A DNA stretch of 6,512 nt from Anaerolineae bacterium CG2_30_58_95 (GTDB lineage: Bacteria > Chloroflexota > Anaerolineae > Anaerolineales > Villigracilaceae): contig MNXK01000108.1 in the NCBI GenBank assembly GCA_001872165.1, positions 1 to 6,512 on the forward strand, in the 5' to 3' direction. Below, one piece after another: positions 1 through 4,274 of the stretch. The position numbers were made by a program, and so were the translations under genes. Position 1 is the stretch's first letter, and each line of letters begins with the position of its first letter. The notes below the pieces were generated by a model. That model did not search any database, had not been told where the DNA came from, and saw nothing but the letters and a program-made list of their open reading frames with translations.

Positions 1-725
1 TCCCAGGCCACCTTCCAGAGCTTGGGATTGTAGGTTGGGCTGTTCATCCAGCCTTCGAATTCTTCCCGCGTCTGCTGGCGGTAGCTCCAATGGTCGCGAA
101 AGGCTTCGTTCATGGCATCAAAGATCGGCCAGACGTGCGCCTCTTCGACCGGGCGTACTTCCAGCCCCTCGGGCATGGGCGTTTCCGGGAAAGGCTCAGT
201 CAGGTCGCGCCGCATGTCAAGCTCATAGCGGATCGGCTTGTAACCCTGGCACTCCAATAAAGCCAGCGCGCCCTTCTCGGTATCCGCCCCAAAGGACTGG
301 AAGAAACGTTCCCCATCCTGTGGGTGGCCGGCCGCGATCTCGCGCAGGCGGCGCTCGGCGTGGCGCAACATGGCCGTGCCAATCCCTTTCCGCCGCCATT
401 GGGGCAGCAAAAAGCCAAAGAGATTGTAAAGGCGGGTTTTATCTTCCAGTTGTTCCCAGAAGACGCGGTTGTAGGCGATCACCTGTCCATTCACCTCGGC
501 GAAGAGCATATCCCGGTGGGGATCGCAATTGACCAGGTGCTGGTAATTGTTCTTGACTTCCTCAGGCGTTTCGGAGCGCTGGATGCCGTCTTCGTCCTTG
601 CTGCCATGTATCACGGCCAGCATGAGTGGGAAGTCCACCTCGCCGCGGAAGCCGTGAAAGTTCAGGCCGGGGATGGCCGGGGCCTCGGCCAAAATGATGT
701 TTTCTTGCTTCGATTGTGTAGTCAT
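1..725 (-). CDS. Tandem-domain GNAT N-acetyltransferase, C-terminus cut by the window edge
   Basis: Reading the minus strand from ATG at 725-723 gives 241 uninterrupted codons that run off the left edge. Residues about 15-175 form a GNAT fold. The acetyl-CoA pyrophosphate-binding signature R-x-x-G-x-G is at R111-G114-G116, after the strand NLFGFLLPQW. A distal helix region ALALLECQGYKPI (153-165) matches the usual GNAT alpha4/beta7 'GFxxxxx' end. From about residue 187 a second GNAT domain starts (GLEVRPVEEAH), with FRDHWSYR at 209-216 and WMNSPTYNPKLW at 226-237. This wording resembles the second half of tandem GNAT proteins such as the mycothiol synthase-like group. A GGAG Shine-Dalgarno (732-735) sits 6 nt before the start. 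The family transfers acetyl from acetyl-CoA to an amine; the substrate here cannot be read. Its mRNA leader (740-959) carries an apparent attenuator, so expression is probably inducible. It could be a resistance, thiol-cofactor or protein-modifying enzyme. Confidence 0.88.
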   Translation of the reverse strand, partial: MTTQSKQENIILAEAPAIPGLNFHGFRGEVDFPLMLAVIHGSKDEDGIQRSETPEEVKNNYQHLVNCDPHRDMLFAEVNGQVIAYNRVFWEQLEDKTRLYNLFGFLLPQWRRKGIGTAMLRHAERRLREIAAGHPQDGERFFQSFGADTEKGALALLECQGYKPIRYELDMRRDLTEPFPETPMPEGLEVRPVEEAHVWPIFDAMNEAFRDHWSYRQQTREEFEGWMNSPTYNPKLWKVAW

Positions 726-744
726 GTCATTCTCCAGTTTTTTT

Positions 745-788
745 AATGAAAACCAAAGCGGCCACAGGATTCGCCCATGGCCGCCTCG
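745..788 (-). terminator. Attenuator terminator 2
   Basis: On the minus strand CGAGGCGGCCA (788-778) pairs with TGGCCGCTTTG (764-754), 11 bp including two G-U pairs around a GC-rich core, with a 13-nt loop. The tail is a short U-rich stretch (GTTTTC). It is weaker than terminator 1 and is only about 10 nt upstream of the GNAT Shine-Dalgarno. Arm 3 can alternatively pair with arm 2 of the first hairpin. Confidence 0.5.
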
Positions 789-825
789 AAAAACAAAACA
801 GCCACGGGAGGGAGCGCACCGTGGC
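789..825 (-). terminator. Attenuator terminator 1
   Basis: On the minus strand GCCACGG (825-819) pairs perfectly with CCGTGGC (807-801) across an 11-nt loop, followed at once by TGTTTTGTTTTT (800-789). This is a standard intrinsic terminator lying between the leader peptide and the GNAT gene. Its loop (arm C) can instead be captured by arm B inside the leader ORF. Confidence 0.72.
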
Positions 826-847
826 CGCAACGAGCTAGATGTGGAAC

Positions 848-934
848 TTACCGGTGAACAGGCGCACTCCGCGCATGCACAAAGATACCGCTGGCGGCAT
901 CGGTGCGAAGACTTGAAAACGAGCTTTTTACCAT
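848..934 (-). CDS. Leader peptide (28 codons) of the attenuator
   Basis: A short minus-strand ORF starts at ATG 934-932 and ends at TAA 850-848. It is preceded by a perfect AGGAGG (948-943) with 8-nt spacing, the strongest ribosome-binding site in the window, which argues that it is translated. The peptide begins MVKSSFSSLRTDAASG and ends FVHARSAPVHR. It has no run of a single amino acid, so ordinary amino-acid starvation attenuation is not obvious. It is Ser-rich at codons 4-8. The start, MVKSS, is loosely like the leader peptides of chloramphenicol-inducible cat genes (for example MVKTD), where drug-stalled ribosomes control expression; that likeness is suggestive only. The codons near the start lie close to arm A and codons 22-25 form arm B, so ribosome position would decide which RNA fold forms. 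A second unsupported frame (876-835, MRGVRLFTGKFHI) overlaps the end. Confidence 0.62.
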   Translation of the reverse strand: MVKSSFSSLRTDAASGIFVHARSAPVHR

Positions 935-965
935 GAAGTGCGCCTCCTTTCTTTGAAGATGGGCA

Positions 966-3619: not shown

Positions 3620-3647
3620 TTGACATACGCCAGCGAACGAGTATAAT
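3620..3647 (+). promoter_or_regulatory. Consensus sigma70 promoter of the toxin-antitoxin operon
   Basis: A perfect TTGACA (3620-3625) and a perfect TATAAT (3642-3647) are separated by 16 nt. This is the strongest promoter-like sequence in the window and would start transcription near 3654, about 32 nt before the antitoxin ATG. Strong promoters checked by autorepression are typical of type II toxin-antitoxin operons. Confidence 0.82.
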
Positions 3648-3651
3648 AATG

Positions 3652-3668
3652 GTGTAATTCGATTACAC
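3652..3668. promoter_or_regulatory. Inverted-repeat operator at the toxin-antitoxin transcription start
   Basis: GTGTAAT-TCG-ATTACAC is a perfect 7-bp inverted repeat with a 3-nt centre, starting 5 nt after the -10 box and covering the predicted transcription start. Ribbon-helix-helix antitoxins bind such short palindromes as dimers, so this is the likely site of autorepression by the antitoxin or the antitoxin-toxin complex. Confidence 0.65.
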
Positions 3669-3685
3669 AATACGGAGGTGCAGTC

Positions 3686-3949
3686 ATGGAACTATGCCGG
3701 GCGCAAATCATGTTAGAAAAAAATCAACTTAACTTGCTTTCGCAAATTGCCCATCAGGAAAGCCGCAGTCTTTCCGACCTGGTACGCGAGATGTTGGCGC
3801 GTGAACTGCTCTACCGTGAGCGCAGGCAAATGCAGCACGCTGCCCGAGAGTTGCAGGCCGAGTACAAAACCAACCCCGAATTGACTGCTTTCACCGCCTT
3901 GGATGGCGATGATTTCCTGTTCGAGGGAGACAAGAATGCACCGGGGTGA
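3686..3949 (+). CDS. Ribbon-helix-helix antitoxin of a MazF/PemK module
   Basis: The 87-aa product has the layout of a ribbon-helix-helix antitoxin. A short N-terminal strand (CRAQIML, 4-10) is followed by two helices (about 12-25 and 28-41, the latter beginning SLSDLVREMLARELL), which together form a dimeric DNA-binding fold. A long charged helix (43-61) leads to an acidic, hydrophobic tail (ELTAFTALDGDDFLFEGD, 65-82) of the kind that wraps and blocks the toxin. Start ATG 3686 has GGAGG (3674-3678) at 7-nt spacing. The gene follows a consensus promoter and palindromic operator, and its last 14 nt overlap the toxin start, so the two are translationally coupled. It should neutralise the toxin in the cytoplasm and repress its own promoter. 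Assignment rests on fold pattern plus the unmistakable neighbour; no catalytic residue applies. Confidence 0.85.
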   Translation: MELCRAQIMLEKNQLNLLSQIAHQESRSLSDLVREMLARELLYRERRQMQHAARELQAEYKTNPELTAFTALDGDDFLFEGDKNAPG

Positions 3950-4274
3950 AGTCTGGCTGGTCAAGCTCGATCCGATGATTGGATCAGAAATCCAAAAAAC
4001 GCGGCCGGCGGTCATTGTGAGTAGTGACGCCGTTGGGGCTTTACCCATCAAAGTCATCGTTCCGTTTACCGATTGGAAAGAACGGTATGAAATTGCACGC
4101 TGGCTTGTGCGCATTGACCCTGATCCTGAGAATGGCCTGACAAAACCTTCCGCCGCTGACGCTCTGCAAATTCGCTCGGTCTCAGAGCAACGATTGGTTC
4201 GGCGTTTGGGTGTTTTGCAACTTCAGCAAGTCGAGCAGATCATTGAGGCGGTGGGGAAAATCCTTCAACGCTGA
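3936..4274 (+). CDS. mazF: PemK/MazF-family endoribonuclease toxin
   Basis: The family cleaves single-stranded RNA at short sequence motifs and arrests growth when not bound by its antitoxin. The 112-aa product opens with the family signature RGEVWLVKLDPMIGSEIQKTRPAVIVSSD (3-31). Arg23 in KTRPAVIV and Thr45 in VPFTDW occupy the places of the catalytic Arg and Thr of characterised MazF proteins. The rest (ALQIRSVSEQRLVRRLGVL, and the C-terminal helix LQQVEQIIEAVGKILQ) also follows the family, and the length is normal, so the toxin looks intact. I choose ATG 3936 over the upstream in-frame ATG 3903 because it puts the signature at the N-terminus and has GGAG (3926-3929) with 6-nt spacing. It overlaps the antitoxin gene by 14 nt in another frame. 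The RNA target motif cannot be read from the sequence. Confidence 0.93.
   Translation: MHRGEVWLVKLDPMIGSEIQKTRPAVIVSSDAVGALPIKVIVPFTDWKERYEIARWLVRIDPDPENGLTKPSAADALQIRSVSEQRLVRRLGVLQLQQVEQIIEAVGKILQR

Follow-up and report, generated by a model that had tools for sequence, protein, structure and literature searches.

A leader RNA before acetyltransferase, exporter and other genes of Anaerolineae is a candidate attenuator that would read a ribosome stalled on early codons

The window analysed here, a stretch of 6,512 nucleotides from Anaerolineae bacterium CG2_30_58_95 (contig MNXK01000108.1), contains a GNAT acetyltransferase gene that is separated from its promoter by a short open reading frame and two terminators. 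This arrangement raises the question of when transcription would reach the gene. From comparison of related leaders and from folding models, we consider it probable that the leader RNA keeps transcription out of the GNAT gene unless a ribosome is stalled at one of the earliest codons of the leader ORF.

RESULTS

Architecture of the leader in front of the GNAT gene

The whole leader is located on the minus strand (995–749), upstream of the GNAT gene (3–725, minus strand, ATG at 725–723), which runs off the contig, matches PF00583 and PF13508 above cut-off and has orthologues of 338–348 amino acids. Its promoter consists of TTGACT (995–990), an 18-nt spacer and TAAACT (971–966) with an upstream TG (extended −10), and matches the sigma-70 consensus at 9 of 12 positions; the window holds 5 sigma-70-type sites of this quality versus 2.6 expected. 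The promoter is kept in all three same-genus genomes, and an extended −10 element is found in 74 of 100 leaders compared with 5 in shuffled upstream sequence. The transcript is predicted from the promoter to start near 959. A ribosome-binding site, AGGAGG (948–943), precedes a leader ORF of 28 codons plus stop (934–848, MVKSSFSSLRTDAASGIFVHARSAPVHR), so that a leader ORF with its own ribosome-binding site lies between promoter and terminator, and translation of this ORF is predicted.

Three complementary arms lie in and around this ORF. Arm A (944–935, GGCGCACTTC) overlaps the ribosome-binding site and pairs with arm B (870–861, GGAGTGCGCC), close to the ORF end, in a putative anti-antiterminator that is supported by covariation, by a swap test and by the minimum free energy (MFE) structure. 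Covariation and the swap test also point to a choice of partners for B, the second being arm C (820–811, GGTGCGCTCC), which forms the tip of the 5′ arm and the loop of terminator 1 and whose pairing with B (swap test) would represent the antiterminator. Terminator 1 comprises arm 1 (828–819), arm 2 (808–801) and a U-tract (800–789), and its helix covaries. Terminator 2 (arm 3, 785–774; arm 4, 768–758; U-tract, 757–749) was reported by a simple terminator scan, which missed terminator 1, the loop of which is too long for the scan; the scan found 3 sites in the window versus 6.8 in shuffles, that is, fewer than in shuffled sequence. Folding also predicts a small hairpin within the leader ORF (GATGCCG-CCAG-CGGTATC, minus strand, 884–901), the seven pairs of which are all retained in leader L004 despite base changes. 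All of these elements are on the minus strand.

None of 200 dinucleotide shuffles folds as well as the region 959–723 (z −3.17). The MFE structure calculated without a ribosome consists of A:B, with 10 pairs, together with helices 1:4 and 2:3; because the structure holds 2:3, this alternative is energetically real. An initial annotation of the window had listed the promoter, AGGAGG, the 28-codon ORF, two U-tailed hairpins and complementary arms, with coordinates and arms that we find to be correct. It had further drawn a terminating state composed of A:B, 1:2 and 3:4, of which the MFE structure contains A:B and replaces the other two helices by 1:4 and 2:3. We regard the element in the window as standing above chance because the same element is conserved and covaries in many other genomes, as detailed below.

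Conservation within the genus and near other GNAT homologues

Orthologues of the GNAT protein are present in three same-genus genomes (94, 90 and 83% identity), and in all three genomes searched the whole leader precedes the orthologous gene, with AAAGAAAGGAGGCGCACTTCATG and the B arm invariant. The sequence between leader and gene is not conserved, the distance from terminator 1 to the GNAT ORF being 77 (window), 81, 137 and 253 nt (G002). AGGAGG is invariant in alignments A1 (4 leaders) and A2 (27 of the 30 leaders then available), 25 of the 27 A2 leaders having come from a pattern that requires AGGAGG; it is not invariant in the wider leader set. Comparison of the 28 leader codons of L001 and L004 finds 11 identical, 7 synonymous and 10 residue-changing codons. 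A clean coding-type mode of evolution is not borne out by this pair, as 10 of 28 codons alter the residue.

Outside the genus, the leader is absent near 13 of 16 GNAT homologues (L005–L020; DNA up to 1500 bases on either side). In the other three (L006, L007, and L017), it is found ∼1.3–1.5 kb upstream of the GNAT homologue on the same strand, at the head of an apparent operon with another gene between. The L007 leader is partial, at the end of the stretch examined: at this locus (G031, positions 1–101, plus strand), ∼1.4 kb separates the partial leader from the GNAT homologue downstream, and the intervening gene, identified by eye, is transporter-like, so that this is possibly a pump-GNAT operon under one leader. 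In L033, a short ORF (MPITARPYQGERDL...) between terminator 2 and the GNAT gene resembles by eye the start of the other GNAT that follows the leader in L042, and looks like the remnant of a lost first operon gene.

A leader family of the Anaerolineae

A DNA search of the four genomes of the genus located a second leader in three, including that of the window, each time in front of an ABC exporter. The initial annotation had framed the element as a GNAT attenuator, which is too narrow: we dropped a GNAT-specific role once the window's own genome proved to carry the leader before an ABC exporter as well, and later before other families, GNATs being one of several targets. In the bacterial family, a two-arm pattern returned 27 sites, spread over 23 of the 152 genomes, and the reversed pattern none. 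We built a covariance model from 27 leaders (R1, the sole covariance model used), which has matches in 273 of the 400 genomes sampled from the order Anaerolineales (E ≤ 0.01, training genomes included), in 82 of 396 genomes of the class (E ≤ 1e-4), 32 of these 82 being in the order, and in 33 of 400 genomes of the phylum (E ≤ 1e-4), 32 belonging to the order and the remaining one to the class. Among these 400 phylum genomes, no match at E ≤ 1e-4 falls outside the class. Scanning all phyla with the same two-arm pattern gave at least 117 stretches, 80 of which were listed; among these 80, seven score ≥97.8 bits with R1, all labelled Chloroflexi or Anaerolineales, and the other 73 (three labelled Chloroflexi) score ≤16.2 bits or have no R1 match. 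A third match in the window's own genome (C63, 25 bits) is located inside a response regulator-like coding region and was set aside as chance.

Searches of Rfam release 15 with the window (E up to 1) returned only a mir-192 match away from the leader, which is below the gathering score and was rejected, and 20 leader loci returned only a tRNA. The initial annotation had called the element undescribed; no Rfam family matches it in the window or in these loci. Such leaders in Anaerolineae, Chloroflexi or Chloroflexota were not found among the papers listed from the open-licence literature, judged by title and start of abstract, which is not proof of absence, and a term search of two noncoding RNA surveys (PMC8632094, PMC11109978) did not return the words Anaerolin or Chloroflex. 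The leader family is real and widespread and, to the searches made, undescribed.

Covariation of the alternative helices

The initial annotation had suggested that covariation of the arms be looked for in relatives. We used two sets of leaders: alignment A3 contains 100 leaders (20 of the first 30, all of them R1 training sequences, and 80 of 100 later ones), chosen by eye and mostly omitting near relatives, and A6 contains 40 held-out leaders, namely the best-scoring listed places outside the order, with G549 (already in the first set) and a second G887 site both left out. For A:B together with terminator 1, 94.6% of cells are paired in A3, with 17 of 18 pairs changed on both sides (8 of 8 in the terminator 1 helix), and 93.8% in A6, with 13 of 18 pairs changed on both sides, counts that are inflated by the alignments having been fitted to these very helices and in which kinship is only partly controlled. 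None of 500 shuffles reaches as high a value in either set, and slid versions yield 34–50% (A3) and 30–49% (A6).

The B:C helix is not part of the covariance model. In a swap test, B pairs more strongly with the C arm of its own leader than with that of another: the 42 leaders with a non-canonical B give −16.05 kcal/mol for own versus −13.37 kcal/mol for swapped arms, and the 40 held-out leaders −18.17 versus −14.96 kcal/mol (0 of 20000 permutations as good in either case). The 58 leaders with a canonical B carry no signal: their own arms pair slightly less strongly than swapped ones, and 18350 of 20000 permutations equal or surpass them. Examples of non-canonical B:C helices are GUAAUGCGCC with GGCGCGUUAC in L315, CGAAAUGC with GCGUUUCG in L246, and eleven pairs in L279. 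At the second base of B, the expected partner is present in arm C for C in 3 of 3, for A in 6 of 8 and for U in only 2 of 14 leaders. B covaries both with A and with C, consistent with mutually exclusive anti-antiterminator, antiterminator and terminator helices. The arms of the initial annotation hence covary in the 100 leaders and again in the 40 held-out ones, and these sequences support the alternative pairing well; induction, and its inducer, we infer.

Of the 39 leaders that precede genes of the two main exporter families, recognised by two N-terminal motifs, only 3 have a second terminator, and its stem is unrelated in each. Of the remaining 61, which still hold a few ABC proteins, 55 have one. 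Own arms 2 and 3 pair better than swapped ones (−15.4 versus −14.47, n = 55, 0 of 5000 permutations). The same is true for 1:4, 1:2 and 3:4, so that 2:3 is not singled out and is compatible with the data rather than proven. Of the read-through state drawn in the initial annotation, B:C is thus borne out by covariation in both leader sets, and 2:3 is compatible with a swap test that is unspecific.

Ribosome position and the predicted switch

We modelled nascent transcripts that end before arm 2, with a ribosome footprint of ∼15 nt on either side, and counted leaders with at least five B:C pairs. Among the 100 leaders, B:C forms in 93, 90, 57 and 56 when the ribosome is placed at codons 2, 4, 6 and 8, respectively, in none when it is at the stop codon and in 42 with no ribosome, compared with 29, 19, 6, 6, 0 and 2 when C is shuffled. 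The corresponding numbers for the 40 held-out leaders are 39, 39, 29, 27, 2 and 26, versus 9, 9, 4, 3, 0 and 2 with shuffled C. In the model, arrest on the first codons favours B:C. The leader of the window is a weak performer, with 8.4 nascent B:C pairs in the absence of a ribosome, 3.5 at codon 2 and 6.0 at codon 4; its terminator 1 probability is 0.56 at codon 2, 0.76 at codon 4 and 0.96 at the stop.

A simple equilibrium switch is mostly not supported by these calculations. Once terminator 1 is fully transcribed, a ribosome on the early codons lowers its probability by more than 0.3 relative to a ribosome at the stop in only 12 of 100 leaders at codon 2 and 10 of 100 at codon 4 (4 of 100 at codon 4 when B is shuffled), and in 11 of 40 held-out leaders at codon 2, so that terminator 1 persists with arm A masked in the remaining 88 of 100 and 29 of 40. 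It follows that the antiterminator must take effect while terminator 1 is still being made, by a kinetic route, or that the switch differs somewhat from the initial drawing. B:C also forms without a ribosome (see above), and transcription order would thus have to favour A:B first. The proposal in the initial annotation that an early stalled ribosome frees B for C accordingly finds a counterpart in nascent RNA modelling and, at equilibrium with terminator 1 complete, mostly does not.

We propose the following mechanism. During normal translation, a ribosome at the stop codon would cover B and terminator 1 would form. With no ribosome, A (including part of the ribosome-binding site) would pair with B, and terminator 1 would again form. 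A ribosome arrested at about codons 1–4 would cover A, leaving B free to pair with the emerging C, and terminator 1 would be delayed or blocked. Terminator 2, in leaders of GNATs and of several other genes, has a stem nearly like that of terminator 1, and its 5′ arm could pair with arm 2; we infer that the same event would likely open both terminators.

Target genes and the nature of the signal

We took as target the next ORF after the leader, looking at the same strand only. Among the 100 leaders, this ORF matches ABC_tran in 51 (ABC_membrane in 42), Acetyltransf_1 in 29 (with up to 20 matching further GNAT models), MFS_1 in 4, RsgA in 3 and a methyltransferase in 1. Two ABC-F targets of this set pass the NCBIfam ribosomal-protection cut-off, and the three RsgA targets pass TIGR00157. 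The 40 held-out leaders precede ABC_tran in 15, RsgA in 6, Acetyltransf_1 in 6, Acetyltransf_9 in 3, RIO1 in 4 and a HAD hydrolase in 2 cases. The RIO1-like targets match NF041645 below its cut-off. Some of the first-ORF picks have no Pfam match, 8 of 10 in one group looked at and 4 of 10 in another.

Inspection of individual loci places RsgA, a 30S maturation GTPase, behind the leader in L294, L301, L312, L331, L341 and L351, several of them with altered B arms; judged by N-terminal sequence, L332, L334 and L337 are probably also RsgA targets (the Pfam total being 6 of 40). RIO1-like kinases follow the leader in bacterial loci L328, L340, L345 and L349, and to our knowledge little is known of their role in bacteria.

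Taken together, the exporters, acetyltransferases, ABC-F proteins, RsgA and RIO1-like kinases likely form one ribosome-distress regulon, and the most likely cause of arrest would be ribosome-targeting antibiotics. The same attenuator could respond to another trigger, such as slow or failed early elongation when mature ribosomes or initiation factors are scarce, and so provide feedback on ribosome assembly. We hold this to be possible, if clearly the less probable reading. RsgA (in both leader sets) and the RIO1-like kinases of the held-out set are not usual drug-resistance genes and speak for such feedback, but the targets in the 100-leader set are mostly exporters, GNATs, MFS pumps and ribosomal-protection ABC-F proteins, the usual set behind drug-induced attenuators. 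Moreover, a shortage of mature ribosomes would mean leaders with no ribosome on them, not leaders with a stalled one, and A:B would then be expected.

The target genes also bear on whether the element belongs to the downstream gene at all. Two terminators intervene before the GNAT gene, and the distance between terminator 1 and the GNAT ORF varies from 77 nt in the window to 253 nt in G002, as might be seen for a stand-alone small protein or small RNA gene with its own terminators that merely adjoins GNAT genes. However, a few coherent families account for the next gene in at least 88 of 100 loci (a sum that takes the families as non-overlapping), and none of the target families is among those listed (25 of 37) after chance pattern matches treated alike, these controls being from other phyla with an ORF of ≥150 codons in 59 of 73 loci. 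The peptide is not conserved, the arms covary three ways, and we think such a gene quite improbable.

The leader ORF as a ribosome track

An ORF that starts just past the ribosome-binding site is open through B in all 100 leaders and in all 40 held-out ones, compared with 970 of 2000 shuffled interiors (49%) and with 29 and 41 of 100 in the two other frames. It is 20–35 codons long in the 100-leader set, and in 99 of 100 its stop codon is located 2–17 nt past B. No two of the 100 leaders share their first ten residues, and for this reason the leader probably acts as a generic landing strip for ribosomes and would report their arrest on the start codon or shortly past it. Codons 2–11 of the A3 leader ORFs are enriched in Asn, Ile, Phe and Thr and depleted in Glu, Gly, Trp and Asp when compared with the downstream proteins, a bias that may reflect avoidance of G in the RNA.

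A majority frame reads B in 87 of the 100 leaders and in 37 of the 40 held-out ones, and other frames do so in the rest (the 13 of 100 off-majority frames were counted by script, and a few stem from a shortened B). Clear off-frame cases read LGVRL (L035, L048, L280) or S(E/G)CAC (L224, L261, L274, L281, L317). The RNA rather than the peptide is therefore conserved, and we rejected the peptide motif PRSAPVxR as the sensor, the RNA being kept in other frames. The majority frame usually places RSAP just before the stop codon, and nascent-peptide arrest through this shared C terminus would hold the ribosome near the stop; this we judge very improbable, since the same RNA is kept in other frames and a ribosome held at that position is predicted by our model to cover B, which would favour termination. 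A search of the first 14 residues for peptide-specific arrest motifs of the ErmC or RLR type found RLR in 2 of 100 and IFV in 2 of 100 leaders.

The architecture resembles trp or his leaders, and an attenuator sensing an amino acid or tRNA charging would carry repeated codons for the amino acid under control. Three identical residues follow one another in 16 of 100 leaders and four in 1 of 100, with no common codon run, and the targets are not biosynthetic; we consider such an attenuator extremely unlikely. A ligand-binding riboswitch or protein-binding leader with an incidental ORF would fit a strongly structured and widespread RNA, but is scarcely credible given an ORF that is open in 140 of 140 leaders against 970 of 2000 shuffled sequences, with its start adjoining A and its stop just past B.

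By eye, exporter-type leaders often contain a small hairpin (GTTGACC..GGTCAA), the loop of which holds the stop codon, and GNAT-type leaders often carry ATACACGCAGTGTAT just after the stop. These elements near the leader stop are possible pause hairpins.

DISCUSSION

T-box leaders represent one RNA family that precedes many genes and builds a regulon by terminator control, and they read tRNA directly; the whiB7 regulon is built through a transcription factor. The Anaerolineae leaders are T-box-like in their reuse before many genes, but their sensor would be a ribosome on the leader ORF, and they have no Rfam match. We lean somewhat towards the view that they constitute a T-box-like, ribosome-reading RNA regulon, in which a portable attenuator with an irrelevant peptide is placed before many targets across the Anaerolineae and early-codon arrest would switch on a distress response without a protein regulator.

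Several individual systems are related to this design. In Bacillus subtilis, bmrB-bmrCD is described, in the part of the report available, as ribosome-mediated transcription attenuation before a multidrug ABC exporter, with three alternative stem-loops; translation of the leader is required, and drugs that target protein synthesis induce (PMC4191407). The Anaerolineae leaders are alike in their predicted attenuation through a leader ORF, and would be inducible by such drugs. bmrB-bmrCD is one locus in one organism as described there (PMC4191407), whereas the Anaerolineae family precedes many gene families and often has a second terminator. In Listeria monocytogenes, the accessible text on rli80-hflXr reports an anti-antiterminator, an antiterminator and a terminator, a small ORF over the anti-antiterminator, a ribosome-acting resistance factor as target, and induction by lincomycin and erythromycin (PMC6310831). 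According to the same text, rli80-hflXr needs a 14-aa peptide with the macrolide motif RLR (PMC6310831), whereas the Anaerolineae leaders share no peptide and RLR is rare among them.

The upstream ORF toiL of the Escherichia coli toiL-topAI-yjhQ operon reads ribosome arrest by several drug classes, and tetracycline and retapamulin stall the ribosome at its start codon, as stated in the portions available of that study (PMC12121999). This arrest position is close to the one favoured by our modelling of the Anaerolineae leaders. As described there, toiL acts on topAI translation and Rho-dependent termination in a single operon (PMC12121999), whereas the Anaerolineae leaders use intrinsic terminators. 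The same portions mention that each of the upstream ORFs of vmlR, cplR, vga(A) and whiB7 responds to ribosome-targeting drugs of several classes, with arrest likely at the start codon for the first three (PMC12121999). As far as these sources describe them, the four leaders are gene-specific, whereas in the Anaerolineae the RNA itself precedes each target.

In the literature that we found, each antibiotic-sensing leader is described for its own gene, and several depend on a peptide of their own. What is new here is one covarying RNA with an interchangeable peptide that is reused before many targets, ribosome assembly factors included. If our reading is correct, one covarying RNA family would define a class-wide regulon in Chloroflexota that are known mostly from metagenomes, ribosome position rather than peptide would be what gets read, and unstudied GNATs, exporters, RsgA and bacterial RIO1-like kinases would be marked as parts of one ribosome-stress response. 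Covariance model R1 can be used for finding more leaders.

Other features of the window

On the plus strand, region 3620–4274 contains a sigma-70 promoter that matches at 12 of 12 positions, a small ORF (3686–3949) with no Pfam match and a PemK/MazF-like toxin ORF (3927–4274, PF02452), the two ORFs being a likely toxin-antitoxin pair. A perfect inverted repeat with 16-bp arms around TCG occupies an intergenic position (2829–2863) and yields only the sub-threshold mir-192 match. The promoter region and first codons of a sortase gene are present twice, as a duplication of ∼50 bases at about 1028–1082 and 1623–1676, and an unknown ORF (1273–1500) sits between the two copies. In G003 (L002), the sortase start directly adjoins the leader, without that insert.
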